NCBI GenBank assembly: GCA_902537815.1
Contig: CACBCS010000009.1
Span: 1 to 64,000 of the forward strand
DNA: 64,000 bases
Source of the DNA: an uncultured Pseudohongiella sp.
Lineage (GTDB): Bacteria; Pseudomonadota; Gammaproteobacteria; Pseudomonadales; Pseudohongiellaceae
Reading direction: 5' to 3'
In this document: positions 25,360-62,081 of the stretch, in pieces
How the letters are laid out: each line of letters begins with the position of its first letter
Numbering within the stretch: position 1 is the first letter of the stretch
Program-made: the position numbers and the translations under genes
The notes under the pieces: model-generated
Databases searched by the model: none
Told to the model about the DNA's origin: nothing
What the model saw: only the letters and a program-made list of their open reading frames with translations

Positions 25360-26490
25360 TTACTCATCGCCGCTATCGGTTTTCTCGTCAGCCGCTTTTT
25401 TCTTGGCAGGCGCTTTTTTGGCGGCAGCTTTTTTCTTCGCCGGAGCCTTTTTAGCAGCTGCTTTTTTCTTGGCAGGCGCTTTTTTGGCAGTAGCCTTTTT
25501 CTTCGCTGGCGTCTTTTCCTCGACCGGGGCGCTTTCTACCTCAGCTGGAGCGCCTTCTTCCTCGGCCGGGGGCGCAGTTTCTTCGGCCGGAGATGCAGCC
25601 TCTTCGCTTGGTGCAGCAGCCTCTATCTCATCAGAACTTTCAGCCTGCACAGGCCCACTGGTCGGCTCGGCCGTTACAGGAGGTTCATCAGAAACGGGGG
25701 CAGCGGCAGGAGCCGGGGCGTCTTCTGCCGGCGCATCCACTGCGTCAGTAACTTCTGCCGCGGTCGCTTCGTCGACTTCAACAAATTCGCTGTCCCCGCC
25801 CGCAGGACCGTGAAGTTTTGTGCCTTCAATGCAGGCATCGGCAACGGCCGAAGCGTAAAGCTGAATCGCGCGAATTGCGTCATCGTTGCCGGGAATCACA
25901 TAATCCACGCCTTCAGGGTCGCTGTTTGTGTCAACGACTCCGATAACTGGAATCTTGAGATTGTTGGCTTCGGTCACAGCGATCCGCTCATGTTCGACAT
26001 CAATCACGAACAGCGCATCAGGCAGGCCACCCATATCTTTGATGCCTCCGATACTGCGCTCCAGTTTTTGCTTCGCCCGTGTCAGCATCAGCGCCTCTTT
26101 CTTGGTAAGGCGGTCAAAAGTACCATCCTGCTCCTGAGTTTCGAGATCTTTGAGCTTTTTAATCGAGCCTCGGATAGTCTTATAGTTAGTCAGCATGCCA
26201 CCGAGCCAGCGGTGATTGACATAAGGCATTCCCGCACGCTCTGCCTGCTCTCTGACAATCTTGGCTGCAGCGCGCTTGGTGCCTACGAAAAGGATCTTCT
26301 TCTTTTTATCAGCAAGCTCGGTTATCTGTTCGAGAGCATCATTGAATGCTGGGACAGTGTGTTCCAGATTGATGATGTGAATCTTGTTGCGGGAGCCAAA
26401 AATGTATGGCTCCATCTTCGGGTTCCAGTAGCGGCATTGGTGCCCGAAATGTACTCCTGCACGGAGCATTTCCTTCATATTGACGTTCAT
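25360..26490 (-). CDS. rpsB: 30S ribosomal protein S2 with long acidic/Lys-Ala C-terminal extension
   Basis: [45 protein letters not shown]... S2 core, followed by ~130 aa A/P/E-rich then [11 protein letters not shown] repeats; 376 aa total. Confidence 0.98.
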
Positions 26491-54480: not shown

Positions 54481-54666
54481 ATGATCACTAAATGGCCCTA
54501 CACCATGAAGATTAAACCGAACACGCGGCGGAAATATGCCAAGAATCTGTATTGGTTGCGCAAAGAAATCGCCAAGCGCAACGACACTGTAGATGACACG
54601 AAAGATGGCGCTGCAGATCAAAAACACAGCAAAACGCCGAATACAGCAACCCACACTGCACCATGA
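54481..54666 (+). CDS. hypothetical small protein
   Basis: MITKWPYTMKIKPNTRRKYAKNLYWLRKE...; 4-nt overlap with the following TIGR03643-type ORF. Confidence 0.3.
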   Translation: MITKWPYTMKIKPNTRRKYAKNLYWLRKEIAKRNDTVDDTKDGAADQKHSKTPNTATHTAP

Positions 54667-54944
54667 CCGCCAGCAACGAAAACCAACAGGCCTTCAACGC
54701 GGCTGAACTGTCCCGCATCATTGAGATGGCGTGGGAAGACCGCACCCCCTTCGAAGCGATCGAGGCTCAGTTCAATTTGTCGGAGACAGAGGTGATTCAG
54801 CTCATGAGAAAATCACTCAAGGACAGGTCGTTCCGACTCTGGCGCCAGCGCACATCCGGCCGAGCAACTAAACACCAGAAGTTGCGCCCGAAGGACGTTC
54901 TCCGGGCTTACTGCCCCACTCAGTACAAGAGCAAAAACAAATAG
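54663..54944 (+). CDS. TIGR03643/DUF2805 family protein
   Basis: LSRIIEMAWEDRTPFEAIEAQFNLSETEVIQLMRKSLKDRSFRLWRQRTSGRATKHQK, characteristic family sequence. Confidence 0.9.
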   Translation: MTASNENQQAFNAAELSRIIEMAWEDRTPFEAIEAQFNLSETEVIQLMRKSLKDRSFRLWRQRTSGRATKHQKLRPKDVLRAYCPTQYKSKNK

Positions 54945-55038
54945 CGCGGCTCGAACGGTAAGAAACTTACGGCTTCGGCAGTTCGCTTCAACCGCCGGCC
55001 AGGAGGAATGCCCAATTCCGCCTATAGATGAATCTAAG

Positions 55039-55095
55039 CCCAGCAAAGAAGAACTAGAGCGGCGGATGAGTGTGCTGCTACCTACTAAATCACCC
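55039..55095 (+). repeat. Tail/leader repeat copy 1
   Basis: cccagcaaagaagaactagagcggcggatgagtgtgctgctacctactaaatcaccc; 54/57 identical to 56125-56181. Confidence 0.97.
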
Positions 55096-55162
55096 CAGTG
55101 AAGCGGGTTTTAACTTGCCGCGTGTAAAGGTTAGGATAGCAATCTTATTCAATCAGGAGATT

Positions 55163-55537
55163 ATGATGGATCTTTCTAACCCAGACGGCAGAGGAAAGTT
55201 GAAAGTTACGAGGATGACCCTTAGTGAGGAGAAAACATCCTTTGACTATGAGGGCAAGGTTGAAGGTTATGGATCGCCCTTTCTTACGCATGAATATTTC
55301 CACAACCCTCAGGACCGCACTCGCGGCAAGCTCATCGGTGAAGCTCGTACGTTCTTGGAAGATGGTACATTGATTAGCACGCCCCACATGGGAACTTTCA
55401 GAAGGGAACAATCAAAGGCTCATGTCTATTTTACAGATGCCTGCAACAACGGAGCGGTTAACTTCGTCATTTTAGAAGTTGACGTAGTCACAAAGGATGT
55501 TGACCTCAAATTTTGGGAAATACGACCAGCTGACTGA
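55163..55537 (+). CDS. hypothetical protein (cassette-like)
   Basis: 124 aa with SD aggaga; MMDLSNPDGRGKLKVTRMTLSEEKTSFDYEGKVEGYG...; flanked by repeat copies. Confidence 0.7.
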   Translation: MMDLSNPDGRGKLKVTRMTLSEEKTSFDYEGKVEGYGSPFLTHEYFHNPQDRTRGKLIGEARTFLEDGTLISTPHMGTFRREQSKAHVYFTDACNNGAVNFVILEVDVVTKDVDLKFWEIRPAD

Positions 55538-55670
55538 CCTCTACTATCCCTGACTATTTTTAGGACTCTAATAAGGATAGCTTAGAGTAACTTTCTCATC
55601 CTGCTCATGGTGCTAACTCAGGGTAAAGCCCGAGAGACTGCTCATTCCACTGAGCAGCCTCTCAGAGCCA

Positions 55671-55703
55671 GCTGCTACCGACTAAATCACCCGATAAAGA
55701 GGA
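55671..55703 (+). repeat. Tail/leader repeat copy 2 (short)
   Basis: gctgctaccgactaaatcacccgataaagagga identical to 56160-56192. Confidence 0.97.
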
Positions 55704-55711
55704 ATAATAGG

Positions 55712-56032
55712 ATGGTTATTTACATAACTCTTTTTGCGGCGGTTGGGTTCGAGGTTGCAGGTACGATGCTTCTTCCGCTGACTCAAAATTTTTCAAAACC
55801 CTTACCAAGCACATTATTGATACTTTTTTATGGATTCTCTTTTTACCTGCTCGCGTTGGTGACTGGGAAGTTACCGCTTCCTGTAATATATGCTTCATGG
55901 GCGGGCCTTGGCGTATTCTCAGTAGCTATTTTAAGCAGCATATTCTATCGGCAAGCACTCAACTGGCAATCTGTAGCAGGGCTGTTCCTGATTGTTGTGG
56001 GTGTGACCATTGTTAACGTCTATAAAACATAA
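55712..56032 (+). CDS. Small multidrug resistance (SMR/EmrE-type) transporter
   Basis: 106 aa, four hydrophobic segments, VIYITLFAAVGFEVAGTMLLPLTQNF...LPLPVIYASWAGLGVFSVAILSSIFYRQALNWQSVAGLFLIVVGVTIVNVYKT. Confidence 0.88.
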   Translation: MVIYITLFAAVGFEVAGTMLLPLTQNFSKPLPSTLLILFYGFSFYLLALVTGKLPLPVIYASWAGLGVFSVAILSSIFYRQALNWQSVAGLFLIVVGVTIVNVYKT

Positions 56033-56124
56033 ATAATCAAGGTGCCTTTGCTTCTGGCTATTTACCTTCTTCGGGATTATGGGTGACGCCGCTCAAGCCG
56101 GATGTTTTTAGAGACGCATCTCAA

Positions 56125-56192
56125 CCCAGCAAAGAAGAACTAGAGCGGCAAATGAGTGTGCTGCTACCGACTAAATCACCCGATAAAGAGGA
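56125..56192 (+). repeat. Tail/leader repeat copy 3
   Basis: Contains the 57-bp unit of copy 1 and the 33-bp unit of copy 2. Confidence 0.97.
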
Positions 56193-56703
56193 GAAGCCCG
56201 ATGACAAATAAATTCAGATATTTACCTCTCGCGGTAATTCTATCCGCTACACCAGTACTAGCGCAGGAAGACGGCGAGCAGGAAATTCGCATTGAACTTG
56301 AGAGCGGCGGCAGTCTCTCAGGCTTTTCACCCATCACTTCAAAAGTCCAGTGACGGTCTTTAACGCTATCGCCCTGCTCCGCCTTAGCTATTTCCAGTTG
56401 GTGCTTCTCCGACCAGCCAGCTTGAGTCTTTAGCCAGAACTGAATCGCTCGCATGTCACCTCTCTGAATTGCGTCCATCAATGCAGACACGACTTGGACG
56501 GTTGTTTCGGCTCTACCCCGCCTGTATGCATCAAAAACCTCCGGCTGACGCTTACAGATTTCATTGAGCGTGTTCTCGCACATACCGAAATAGGCTGCTA
56601 GCTGCTGCTTTGAGAGTACTCCGGCCAGCGTTTTGACCTCCTGTACCTGCTGCTCGCTCAGGCTCTTCTGTGGACGACCGCCAACGTCTTTAACCAACTC
56701 CAT
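56176..56703 (-). CDS. Phage terminase small subunit-like DNA-binding protein, C-terminus probably chimeric
   Basis: MELVKDVGGRPQKSLSEQQVQEVKTLAGVLSKQQLAAYFGMCENTLNEICKRQPEVFDAYRRGRAETTVQVVSALMDAIQRGDMRAIQFWLKTQAGWSEK; SD GGAGG before Met at 56703. Confidence 0.65.
   Translation of the reverse strand: MELVKDVGGRPQKSLSEQQVQEVKTLAGVLSKQQLAAYFGMCENTLNEICKRQPEVFDAYRRGRAETTVQVVSALMDAIQRGDMRAIQFWLKTQAGWSEKHQLEIAKAEQGDSVKDRHWTFEVMGEKPERLPPLSSSMRISCSPSSCASTGVADRITARGKYLNLFVIGLLLFIG
56201..56353 (+). pseudogene. Truncated secreted protein (signal peptide plus short acidic mature part)
   Basis: MTNKFRYLPLAVILSATPVLAQEDGEQEIRIELESGGSLSGF then runs antisense into the terminase-like ORF and stops. Confidence 0.55.
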
Positions 56704-56725: not shown

Positions 56726-56837
56726 TTCATCAAACAGAAAGACAGTCACCATCTTCCGCACATGACTGGCTAAAGATATGTCTTCAGGCTTGTCTGGTAG
56801 CACCCGCATATAGAAAAAATCACGCCAGTTGTTCCAG
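56726..56837 (-). pseudogene. Remnant of a ribbon-helix-helix-like gene (3' part)
   Basis: 112 bp, 94% identical to 58066-58177 within the intact ORF 58018-58290. Confidence 0.8.
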
Positions 56838-58017: not shown

Positions 58018-58290
58018 CTAATTTACACTTTTGCAAATATCACTTAGATTGTCAGAGTTGGCATGTTCATCAAACAGAAATACAGTCACCATCTTTCGCA
58101 CATGACTGGCCAAAGATATGTCTTCAGGTTTGTCTGGTAGTACCCGCATATAGAAGAAATCACGCCAGTTATTCCAGCCGTCTTCATAGGCCAGGACTTC
58201 AAGTGCTTGCCAATATTCACGCTCTAAAGCCAAACAACTGCGACCGCTGTCTAGGTCAATGTGACGCTGTTCTAGGTATCGTCTGAGCAT
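58018..58290 (-). CDS. Ribbon-helix-helix domain-like protein
   Basis: LALEREYWQALEVLAYEDGWNNWRDFFYMRVL RHH-type helix pattern; phage-like neighbours. Confidence 0.55.
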   Translation of the reverse strand: MLRRYLEQRHIDLDSGRSCLALEREYWQALEVLAYEDGWNNWRDFFYMRVLPDKPEDISLASHVRKMVTVFLFDEHANSDNLSDICKSVN

Positions 58291-58582
58291 TGTTCAACGA
58301 CCTCTCCGTCTATCACTTTCGCCTTTGCATCAATCACGCTAATTGTGACTTTGACCGATTCACGGTTATCAAACTTCTTCTCAAAGGTGCTGATAGGCAG
58401 CAATCTGTCCATCACTAGCTTCTGAGCGACTGCTTGGTTCTTATGCTCACATCCAGTGCAGCACTAACGACCTTCTTAAGCACCTTGGGAACGTCTGGAT
58501 GCTCCAAAAGCGTTTGCTTTAACTCAAGCTGTCTAGCCCGCATTCCTGCTGGTCTGCCACGTTTGACGGGTGTTTTACTCAT
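58272..58582 (-). pseudogene. Frameshifted phage-like packaging/DNA-binding ORF
   Basis: MSKTPVKRGRPAGMRARQLELKQTLLEHPDVPKVLKKVVSAAL continues in another frame as GCEHKNQAVAQKLVMDRLLPISTFEKKFDNRESVKVTISVIDAKAKVIDGEVVEQCSDDT*. Confidence 0.7.
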
Positions 58583-59763: not shown

Positions 59764-59800
59764 AGTGCAGTTGCACTTTGAGCAGGTGCAGTTGCACTTA
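59764..59800. repeat. Two direct copies of a palindromic 14-mer
   Basis: aGTGCAgtTGCACtt and gGTGCAgtTGCACtt, 21 bp apart. Confidence 0.8.
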
Positions 59801-60526
59801 CTCGTCAGTCTTTTGCGGCTCTGGGTCTATTCCGTACTGGCGAAGGATGGGATTAACGTCTTTCCAGAGTTTTTTGAGAGTGTCAGCAGCCAAGCCTTTA
59901 TTTTTCAGCTTTGGACCTTCCGTCACATAATTTTGTTCAATCCAGTGTCTGAGCGTTTCTTGGTCTTTGAATGGAAGAGCCTTTAGTTTCGGGTCTAGAA
60001 GTGCAGTTTTGAGTATACCAATCACTAAAAGCAGGTTGTTTCTGGCCGTTTCACCCATCTGCTGTTCCTCGACGGGCGGTTCTTGCTTACTGGGCCGTTT
60101 TCGCTTGATGGGAACGTTTATAACGTTGCCGTCAATCAGTTTCGCAATCCGGCGTTTCTCGTCCTCTTTCAGATGCCCTTCGCTGTAAGCCCAGTCAAGC
60201 CACTCAACTTCGATAAAAGGTTTTTGTGCTGCCCAGTGCAAGTAGTAATACTTGTTATAAGAGTTCCAGCTTAAATAGGAAAGCGAAGTAGAAATCTGGG
60301 TGTTCGTGTAAGGATGCGAGTCTTGAGTCCAACTGTCGAAGATATGCTTGTATGCAAATTTCGCCTCGTTCGCCGGAACACGTTTACCTGTTCGCAGACT
60401 CGTAAAACTTGTTTCAGACTCGTTAGGTTTAATACCAGCAAGTGTGTAAATCGCTTTGTTTTCAGCCCAAAATTCATTATAGAGCAACGGTATCAGCGCA
60501 TCCCAATCAGGCTTTGAGTCACTCAT
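59798..60526 (-). CDS. Hypothetical protein translationally coupled to the integrase
   Basis: 242 aa (MSDSKPDWDALIPLLYNEFWAENKAIYTLAGIKPNESE...); ATG overlaps the integrase stop (ATGA). Confidence 0.7.
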   Translation of the reverse strand: MSDSKPDWDALIPLLYNEFWAENKAIYTLAGIKPNESETSFTSLRTGKRVPANEAKFAYKHIFDSWTQDSHPYTNTQISTSLSYLSWNSYNKYYYLHWAAQKPFIEVEWLDWAYSEGHLKEDEKRRIAKLIDGNVINVPIKRKRPSKQEPPVEEQQMGETARNNLLLVIGILKTALLDPKLKALPFKDQETLRHWIEQNYVTEGPKLKNKGLAADTLKKLWKDVNPILRQYGIDPEPQKTDE

Positions 60527-61866
60527 TTGCTTGCTCTCCTTCGCATTGGAATCACATCCGCTGTGTGGCCTTTCGCTTTGGTAATCCAGTCTTCCCACGC
60601 CTTCAGGAGTTTGACCCGTTCGTCAAAGCACTGACCTCTGGCATAGGCAGCACGAGTGCTATCGCTATTCACGTGCTTCATGCTCAATCTGACAGCATCT
60701 TCAGTCCATCTGCCGACTTGCGCATCCTGCACCCAAGTCTCAAACGATGACCGGAAACCATGCGCTACACCGTCATAGCCAAGGCTGTCTGGTATGCACG
60801 ATACATAGTTGTCGGGTATTGCCTTGCCGCTATCCAGAGCAAAGATAAGACCGCTCCGCTTCGGGCCTTGGGCTTTCAGTATCTTGATTGCCTGCGGTGT
60901 CAGAGGCACCGTCCACTCGTACTCGCTTTTATGTAACTCAGCGTCATTTTTCGGGATGAACCAGCACTTTTGCTCTAGGTCTATTTCGCTCCAATCTGCT
61001 AGACGCGCTTCTGATGGCCTTGCGATTGTGAGTATCTGGAATGCCAAACAGGCTGCTTCAGGCTTGGCGCCGACCGGATGTGTAAGTTCCAGTAACTTCG
61101 GCATGAACTTCGGCATAAGTCGCCAATCAACTGAGCGTTGATGTTGGACTGTGTGGACTTTCTTTGGTGCTGGAAACTCAATGTCTAAGTTGCTTTGCCA
61201 TCTGGCAGGATTATCACCAGTCGGTCTTAGCTTCCGGCGGATTCCGAGATTAACTATGTGTTCGCAGTGTCTGATTATCTTCTGCGCAGTGCCGGTCTTG
61301 GTTGTCCAGATGGGCTTAAGAATCGCAATGAAATGCGCCGGCTCTAGTTCGCTGACCAGAATATTGCCTACGACCGGATTGATGTAGTCTCTCAGGAACT
61401 GCTGAAGACGACTGACCTGCTTTGTTGTTTTCCAGCTAGCGGCTTTGATTTCAACGTAGTCTTGAGCCAACTCTCTAAATGTAACGTCAATAGATTTTGA
61501 TGCCGCCTCTGAACGCTTTCGTCTCTTCTCAGCGAGCGGGTCTAAACCCGCCTTGATATCATCAAGCATCTTCAATCCGGCTTTGCGGGCAGCACTCAGA
61601 GTCATGCCTGTGCTTCGTTCGTCGCCGCTTCTCTTTTTGCGGGTTGCTTTACCGCCGCTGTAGGTACCCAAGCCGATTTCAGGTCTCCGCCTGCCAATGA
61701 GCGGGCGTAGTAGCCACGACTTTGAGCCGCTTGGTTTGACGCAGCAATATAGATTTGGACAGCCACCGACCAGCACCATGTTCTTCACAAGTGTGCCGTC
61801 TGGCTTTTGCTTGGGTTTCAGGTTTTTTACTGCAATTTCAGTGAGCGGTTTTACTTGTTTCGGCAT
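60523..61866 (-). CDS. Tyrosine recombinase/integrase, DUF4102 (P4-type) family
   Basis: KQVKPLTEIAVKNLKPKQKPDGTLVKNMVLVGGCPNLYCCVKPSGSKSWLLR; catalytic regions ARPSEARLADWSEID and AHGFRSSFETWVQ; adjacent to tRNA-Arg. Confidence 0.93.
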   Translation of the reverse strand: MPKQVKPLTEIAVKNLKPKQKPDGTLVKNMVLVGGCPNLYCCVKPSGSKSWLLRPLIGRRRPEIGLGTYSGGKATRKKRSGDERSTGMTLSAARKAGLKMLDDIKAGLDPLAEKRRKRSEAASKSIDVTFRELAQDYVEIKAASWKTTKQVSRLQQFLRDYINPVVGNILVSELEPAHFIAILKPIWTTKTGTAQKIIRHCEHIVNLGIRRKLRPTGDNPARWQSNLDIEFPAPKKVHTVQHQRSVDWRLMPKFMPKLLELTHPVGAKPEAACLAFQILTIARPSEARLADWSEIDLEQKCWFIPKNDAELHKSEYEWTVPLTPQAIKILKAQGPKRSGLIFALDSGKAIPDNYVSCIPDSLGYDGVAHGFRSSFETWVQDAQVGRWTEDAVRLSMKHVNSDSTRAAYARGQCFDERVKLLKAWEDWITKAKGHTADVIPMRRRASK

Positions 61867-62004
61867 CAGTCCCACCAACTGTCCCACCAAAAACAATGTG
61901 CTTATGGCGGGACGCAATGTTACACAACTACACCGAAGTATAGCGTTTTATACCGATATTTATAGTGTTTTTGCTACGTGGAGTGTCGGAAGGTTACTGT
62001 AAGT

Positions 62005-62081
62005 TGGTGTCCCCGGCAGGGGTCGAACCTGCAACCTACGCCTTAGGAGGGCGTCGCGCTATCCAGTTGTGCCACGGGGAC
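62005..62081 (-). tRNA. tRNA-Arg(CCT)
   Basis: GTCCCCGTGGCACAACTGGATAGCGCGACGCCCTCCTAAGGCGTAGGTTGCAGGTTCGACCCCTGCCGGGGACACCA; anticodon loop CTCCTAA; CCA encoded; one A-C mismatch in the D stem. Confidence 0.95.

Follow-up and report, generated by a model that had tools for sequence, protein, structure and literature searches.

In class 1 integrons, the leader at attI1 combines the Pc promoter with a short open reading frame (ORF-11) and gives expression to whichever gene follows, and SMR (QacE/EmrE-type) genes are classic gene-cassette cargo. In cluster K mycobacteriophages, a 13-bp repeat, the start-associated sequence (SAS), is found where ribosomes bind ahead of many small genes that are unrelated to each other, and sometimes holds the stop codon of the preceding gene (PMC3203893). 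PICI, PICMI (PMC10803314) and tycheposons are small elements integrated at tRNA genes of marine bacteria; they have a tyrosine integrase and a terminase-small-like gene, and their cargo is exchangeable.

The array described here lies in a 64,000-nt stretch of DNA from an uncultured Pseudohongiella sp. ('the window') and has the appearance of cargo genes swapped behind a constant leader for their expression, not that of a classical integron. As with SAS, a repeat stands in ribosome-binding position before unrelated genes of mobile elements; SAS, however, is a 13-bp sequence of phage genomes, whereas the repeat in this case is the coding end of a 60-70-codon ORF within a leader of ~340 bp, in tRNA islands with different payloads. 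As with attI1, a presumably constant upstream promoter and a short ORF precede an exchangeable gene, but there is no IntI, attI or attC, and every payload comes with a leader copy of its own, where attI1 provides one leader per array. The SMR gene of the window is carried behind an island leader, unlike SMR genes in gene cassettes. The leader thus appears to work like the cluster K SAS and the attI1 short ORF while being a member of neither, and its likeness to SAS would be one of function. The island shares with PICI, PICMI and tycheposons the parts named above. The PICMI core int-alpA-prim (PMC10803314) was not found in the window island, where neither a primase nor AlpA was recognised among the scanned proteins; nor is a reused leader of this kind described for PICI, PICMI or tycheposons in the passages compared.

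The original prediction had pointed to a 57-bp unit at 55039-55095 and 56125-56181 (3 mismatches) and to a third copy at 55671-55703, identical to 56160-56192 at 33/33 positions. Both repeats are borne out and lie far above chance: the 22-bp core was found 3 times in the window, against 0.00 expected from shuffles. The alignable repeat extends beyond 57 bp (55023-55095 versus 56109-56181, 89%). Copy 1 (55023-55095, forward strand) is the 3' part of a DESKP-type leader (DESKPSKEELERRMSVLLPTKSP) whose upstream portion has been deleted and whose ribosome-binding part is lost; it contains the left 22-bp direct repeat (GCTGCTACCTACTAAATCACCC, 55074-55095, forward strand), the right copy of which is at 55671-55692. 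Copy 2 (55671-55703, forward strand), with a hairpin (GAGAGACTGCTCA/TGAGCAGCCTCTC, 55632-55663) immediately to its left, is the 3' half of the leader unit and provides the ribosome-binding site for the SMR gene. Copy 3 (56109-56192) is part of a third leader remnant (56087-56192, forward strand), in which the leader ORF (...SKEELERQMSVLLPTKSPDKEEKPDDK) overlaps the following start codon. The reading frame of the unit and the AAAGAGGA ribosome-binding region were as claimed. Each copy had also been placed just upstream of a small ORF. Past 55095, copy 1 has lost its ribosome-binding half or diverged from it, so copy 1 does not serve the 124-aa gene that follows, which has its own ribosome-binding site near 55152. 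Further copies were sought beyond the window and found in the same genome, where a fourth lies on contig C69, and in eight other genomes. A local tandem duplication including the flanking ORFs is ruled out: the copies have unrelated flanking sequences and are also present on other contigs and in other genomes. Outside the island, the window also contains an exact 29-bp repeat (25394-25422 and 25460-25488, 66 bp apart).

The units are fragments of the ~340-bp leader. In one Pseudohongiella-related genus, 15-25 occurrences of this leader are spread over nine genomes, and many of these copies come from draft MAGs. The unit is present in 9 of the 84 genomes of the genus (G000, the genome of the window, and G060, G061, G062, G067, G071, G111, G118 and G121), and leader copies are found at several loci per genome. 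The matching records point to a marine gammaproteobacterial clade; a search of the family outside the genus gave weak 24-base matches only, and phage, viral-contig (IMG/VR) and plasmid collections gave no match to unit or leader.

A full leader consists of a conserved non-coding block (..AGTTATAGTATCTTCCCAGACTTGCTTGAGCCGATTTTGAAAAAAAAGTGA..) followed by the leader ORF, which ends in ...SKEELERQMSVLLPTKSPDKEDS and a stop codon. The unit comprises the 3' end of this ORF plus the ribosome-binding site, and its copies read SKEELERQMSVLLPTKSPDKED(S) in frame. Differences among diverged unit copies are mostly synonymous in the leader frame (pS 0.42, pN 0.16), whereas in the other two frames pN equals or exceeds pS (pS/pN 0.22/0.22 and 0.15/0.25). 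Because the synonymous bias is confined to the leader frame, the unit is the C-terminus of a translated ORF. The N-terminus of the leader ORF has two forms, MMGTQ-GLIFAVLVIPAVLGWLVWQRYMNRFELPEDDESKP, with one membrane segment, and MTNDTKSDKDMHKSGWMVPPRPNVPREIEEARQIAKDTYRKARA; both are preceded by the same upstream block, and 15 copies of this non-coding block align. No conserved RNA structure was predicted in the 15-copy block, no Rfam family was found on the leader or the window array, and a promoter scan showed no sigma-70 consensus on the leader coding strand. On the 3' side of the unit there is a GAGGA, and in copies with an intact end the payload starts 70-74 nt from the unit start. Leader and payload always have the same orientation, and in several intact copies the leader stop is at or overlaps the payload start (TAATG, ATGA). 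This overlap resembles classical translational coupling, and on that resemblance the two ORFs may be coupled. Since the leader ORF is broken or truncated in G071, G118 and G121:C6, coupling would not be kept everywhere.

At least nine unrelated payload families stand behind leaders in the nine genomes. An SMR-type small multidrug transporter is the payload in the window and in G071:C30, G118 and G121:C9, and a 387-aa exported peptidase-like protein is the payload on C69 and in G060 and G121:C6; further payloads include a 66-aa MSERR protein, a 90-aa MTNKF protein, a 68-aa MKDKS family, a 135-aa protein and others, some of them behind longer leaders. By eye, the majority of payloads look membrane-bound or exported, and no match to a defence system was found among them. 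The SMR gene of the window (55712-56032, forward strand; Pfam PF00893, 4.9e-19) scores far under the curated Qac cut-offs. The ORF after copy 3 (56201-56353, forward strand; MTNKFRYLPLAV...) had been described as a signal-peptide protein. It is indeed homologous to an exported protein, but as a truncated copy: the 90-aa protein is intact in G121:C4, and in the window homology ends at 56315, where the ORF is cut by a block of terminase-small and ribbon-helix-helix (RHH) genes. In G067, an in-frame fusion places a gene for an ABC-membrane protein (337 aa; PF13748, 2.4e-55) inside the leader ORF, with the leader N-terminus on one side and the unit on the other. Alignments to relatives from other genomes begin at residue 18-38 and end at about 305-313 (at 329 in one match); because they match only the middle of the G067 protein, both ends, the leader N-terminus and the unit, must have been added.

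The array is placed between a chromosomal DUF2805 gene (54663-54944, forward strand; Pfam PF10985, 1.9e-34), which by synteny marks the left edge of the island, and tRNA-Arg(cct) (62005-62081, reverse strand), the integration site. The remaining genes of the island described here are all on the reverse strand. Next to the truncated payload there are a small-terminase-like gene (56354-56703; phrog_309, 7.3e-14), which is a packaging gene of the kind found in PICI-like satellites, and an RHH gene fragment (56726-56837) that is 94% identical to 58066-58177 within a whole RHH_4 gene (58018-58290; Pfam PF13467, with 8 whole or partial matches in the genome). A second small-terminase-like/HTH gene (58293-58582) is broken by frameshift. 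It is followed by a 266-aa gene of unknown family (59798-60598), which also adjoins leaders in G071:C30 and G121:C6, and by a P4-type tyrosine integrase (60523-61917; PF13356, PF22022, PF00589; phrog_1) beside the tRNA gene. The original prediction had asked for a linked recombinase; the integrase is one, but its site is the neighbouring tRNA-Arg and not the unit. No far att repeat of tRNA-Arg was found within the window. Beside the 266-aa gene, the 14-bp GTGCAGTTGCACTT occurs twice at a distance of 21 bp (59765-59778 and 59786-59799) and could be an operator.

Sister islands with such parts are located at tRNA-Pro, tRNA-Leu and tRNA-SeC, although some leader-bearing contigs are too short to reveal a tRNA or an integrase. 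The order tRNA-Pro, integrase, leader is seen in two genomes; a sister island of 22.5 kb is flanked by a 23-bp repeat of the tRNA-SeC 3' end (L128/L106/L127; G120:C1, 15997 and 38468); and in G000:C13 a tRNA-Arg end, an att remnant with an integrase-side flank, lies near a leader. From these contexts we conclude that the leader belongs to tRNA islands.

Taken together with the payload data, this makes it probable that the units derive from the 3' part of a modular leader for expression, carried by a family of tRNA-integrated, satellite-like islands in one clade of Pseudohongiella-related bacteria, working by translational coupling and with payloads exchanged by recombination. A promoter in the conserved block (the CCCAGACTTGC region) would transcribe leader ORF and payload, and ribosomes finishing the leader ORF would restart on the payload, so that any gene put behind the leader could be expressed. 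Related islands would pile up at the same tRNA genes, recombination between leader copies would swap payloads, and the arrays would then decay through deletion and IS insertion. In the window, the outcome would be a leader now interrupted by the stretch that holds the 124-aa gene, followed by the SMR gene and then by a second leader remnant with a truncated payload. The suggestion in the original prediction that genes had been captured behind a constant leader fits the variety of payload families across nine genomes and with a unit made of a coding leader-ORF end plus ribosome-binding site. Such a leader may be a way for small open-ocean mobile islands to give new genes ready-made expression signals without an integron, and it offers a handle for finding island cargo.

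The units could instead be passive debris: fragments of an island gene family that recombination has spread and that contribute nothing to expression of the gene that follows. Truncated or broken copies are numerous, and pieces of RHH, terminase and integrase pseudogenes abound in the arrays; the coding constraint in the unit, the constant spacing from ribosome-binding site to the start of unrelated payloads, and the uniform orientation of leader and payload nevertheless make this unlikely. Several small, unrelated genes in the same orientation separated by a repeat also recall a degenerate, CALIN-like integron array with no integrase close by, and integron integrases do exist in the genus. 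Here, though, the repeat precedes the genes, is coding and does not form a strong hairpin. The integron reading was rejected on both features tested: G000, a genome ~71% complete, has 0 matches to the integron integrase model TIGR02249, and 54900-56400 holds 0 attC-like RYYYAAC/GTTRRRY box pairs (shuffle mean 0.19). The original judgement that the repeat does not resemble attC was right, and we regard a CALIN-like origin as scarcely credible. Integron integrases above the TIGR02249 cut-off are found in 11 of the 84 same-genus genomes (e.g. L052-L062), none of which bears the unit.

A different question is how the 124-aa gene (55163-55537, forward strand) came to lie within the array. The gene has no Pfam, NCBIfam, PHROG or PADLOC match, but six genomes of the genus have orthologues with 81-87% identity, which lie in different surroundings and are not accompanied by the unit; when these natural flanks are compared, homology around the relatives stops at the ribosome-binding site and the stop codon. 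Deleting 597 bp, that is, one 22-bp repeat plus 55096-55670, recovers the leader-SMR order of G118:C93, G071:C30 and G121:C9, and the 124-aa gene is therefore an insertion flanked by the 22-bp repeat, within the leader that precedes the SMR gene. The DUF2805 gene adjoins leader and SMR gene directly in G118 and is ~2 kb away in G071:C30. On C69, a cassette with the MSERR gene interrupts the leader of the peptidase gene at the corresponding part of the unit, and this leader is whole in G121:C6 and G060:C57. These two cases are compatible with the proposal of the original prediction that serial insertion regenerates the 3' end of a gene, but they do not establish a site-specific mechanism. In that mechanism the unit, with core GCTGCTACCGACTAAATCACCC, would be an attachment site, and circular cassettes would rebuild the leader 3' end. 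There are only two such cases, which two tandem leaders, each partly deleted, would fit equally; the inserted stretch contains a residual end of an IS3-family insertion sequence (55579-55641; 79-82% identity to repeated ends in G106, G088 and G116, with transposase ORFs beside such an end in L141); other junctions fall at different positions in the leader; and no recombinase is tied to the unit, the linked integrase being at tRNA-Arg. Given the varying breakpoints and the IS3-family end, we claim no site-specific system, and consider insertion of this kind improbable. A combined version seems more doubtful still: the unit would serve as an expression leader and, at the same time, as the attachment site for an unknown recombination system. 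Circular gene cassettes would integrate at GCTGCTACCGACTAAATCACCC in the leader ORF, rebuild it and bring each added gene under translational control by that ORF, in islands lacking an integron integrase. With the in-frame capture of the ABC-membrane gene and two insertions in the same unit, the question of how cargo is exchanged behind the modular leader can be tested directly in more genomes.

Other recurrent features were noted in and around the islands. A family of 155-aa proteins with one membrane segment (..QLLGMLGVLGGLVFVGLEMRQSQRIAIA..) accounts for 52 ORFs, at L106 5295-8460 (G120:C1 17295-20460) and in 12 other stretches, with up to five in tandem between terminase-small-like and RHH genes at tRNA islands; one typical member was scanned and had no Pfam, NCBIfam or PADLOC match. 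In two genomes (L044 9368-9555; L108 2114-2307), islands contain or adjoin an IMES-1 RNA (RF02034), a marine RNA motif whose function is unknown. Finally, a module made of a conserved hairpin (CCGCCTCACC...GGTGAGGCGG) and, downstream of it, a TGACAG-A-GTTTCC motif is present at L103 14540-14780, L102 5470-5760 and 8 other loci; it is found after RHH genes or within some leaders and is possibly a packaging, operator or RNA element.
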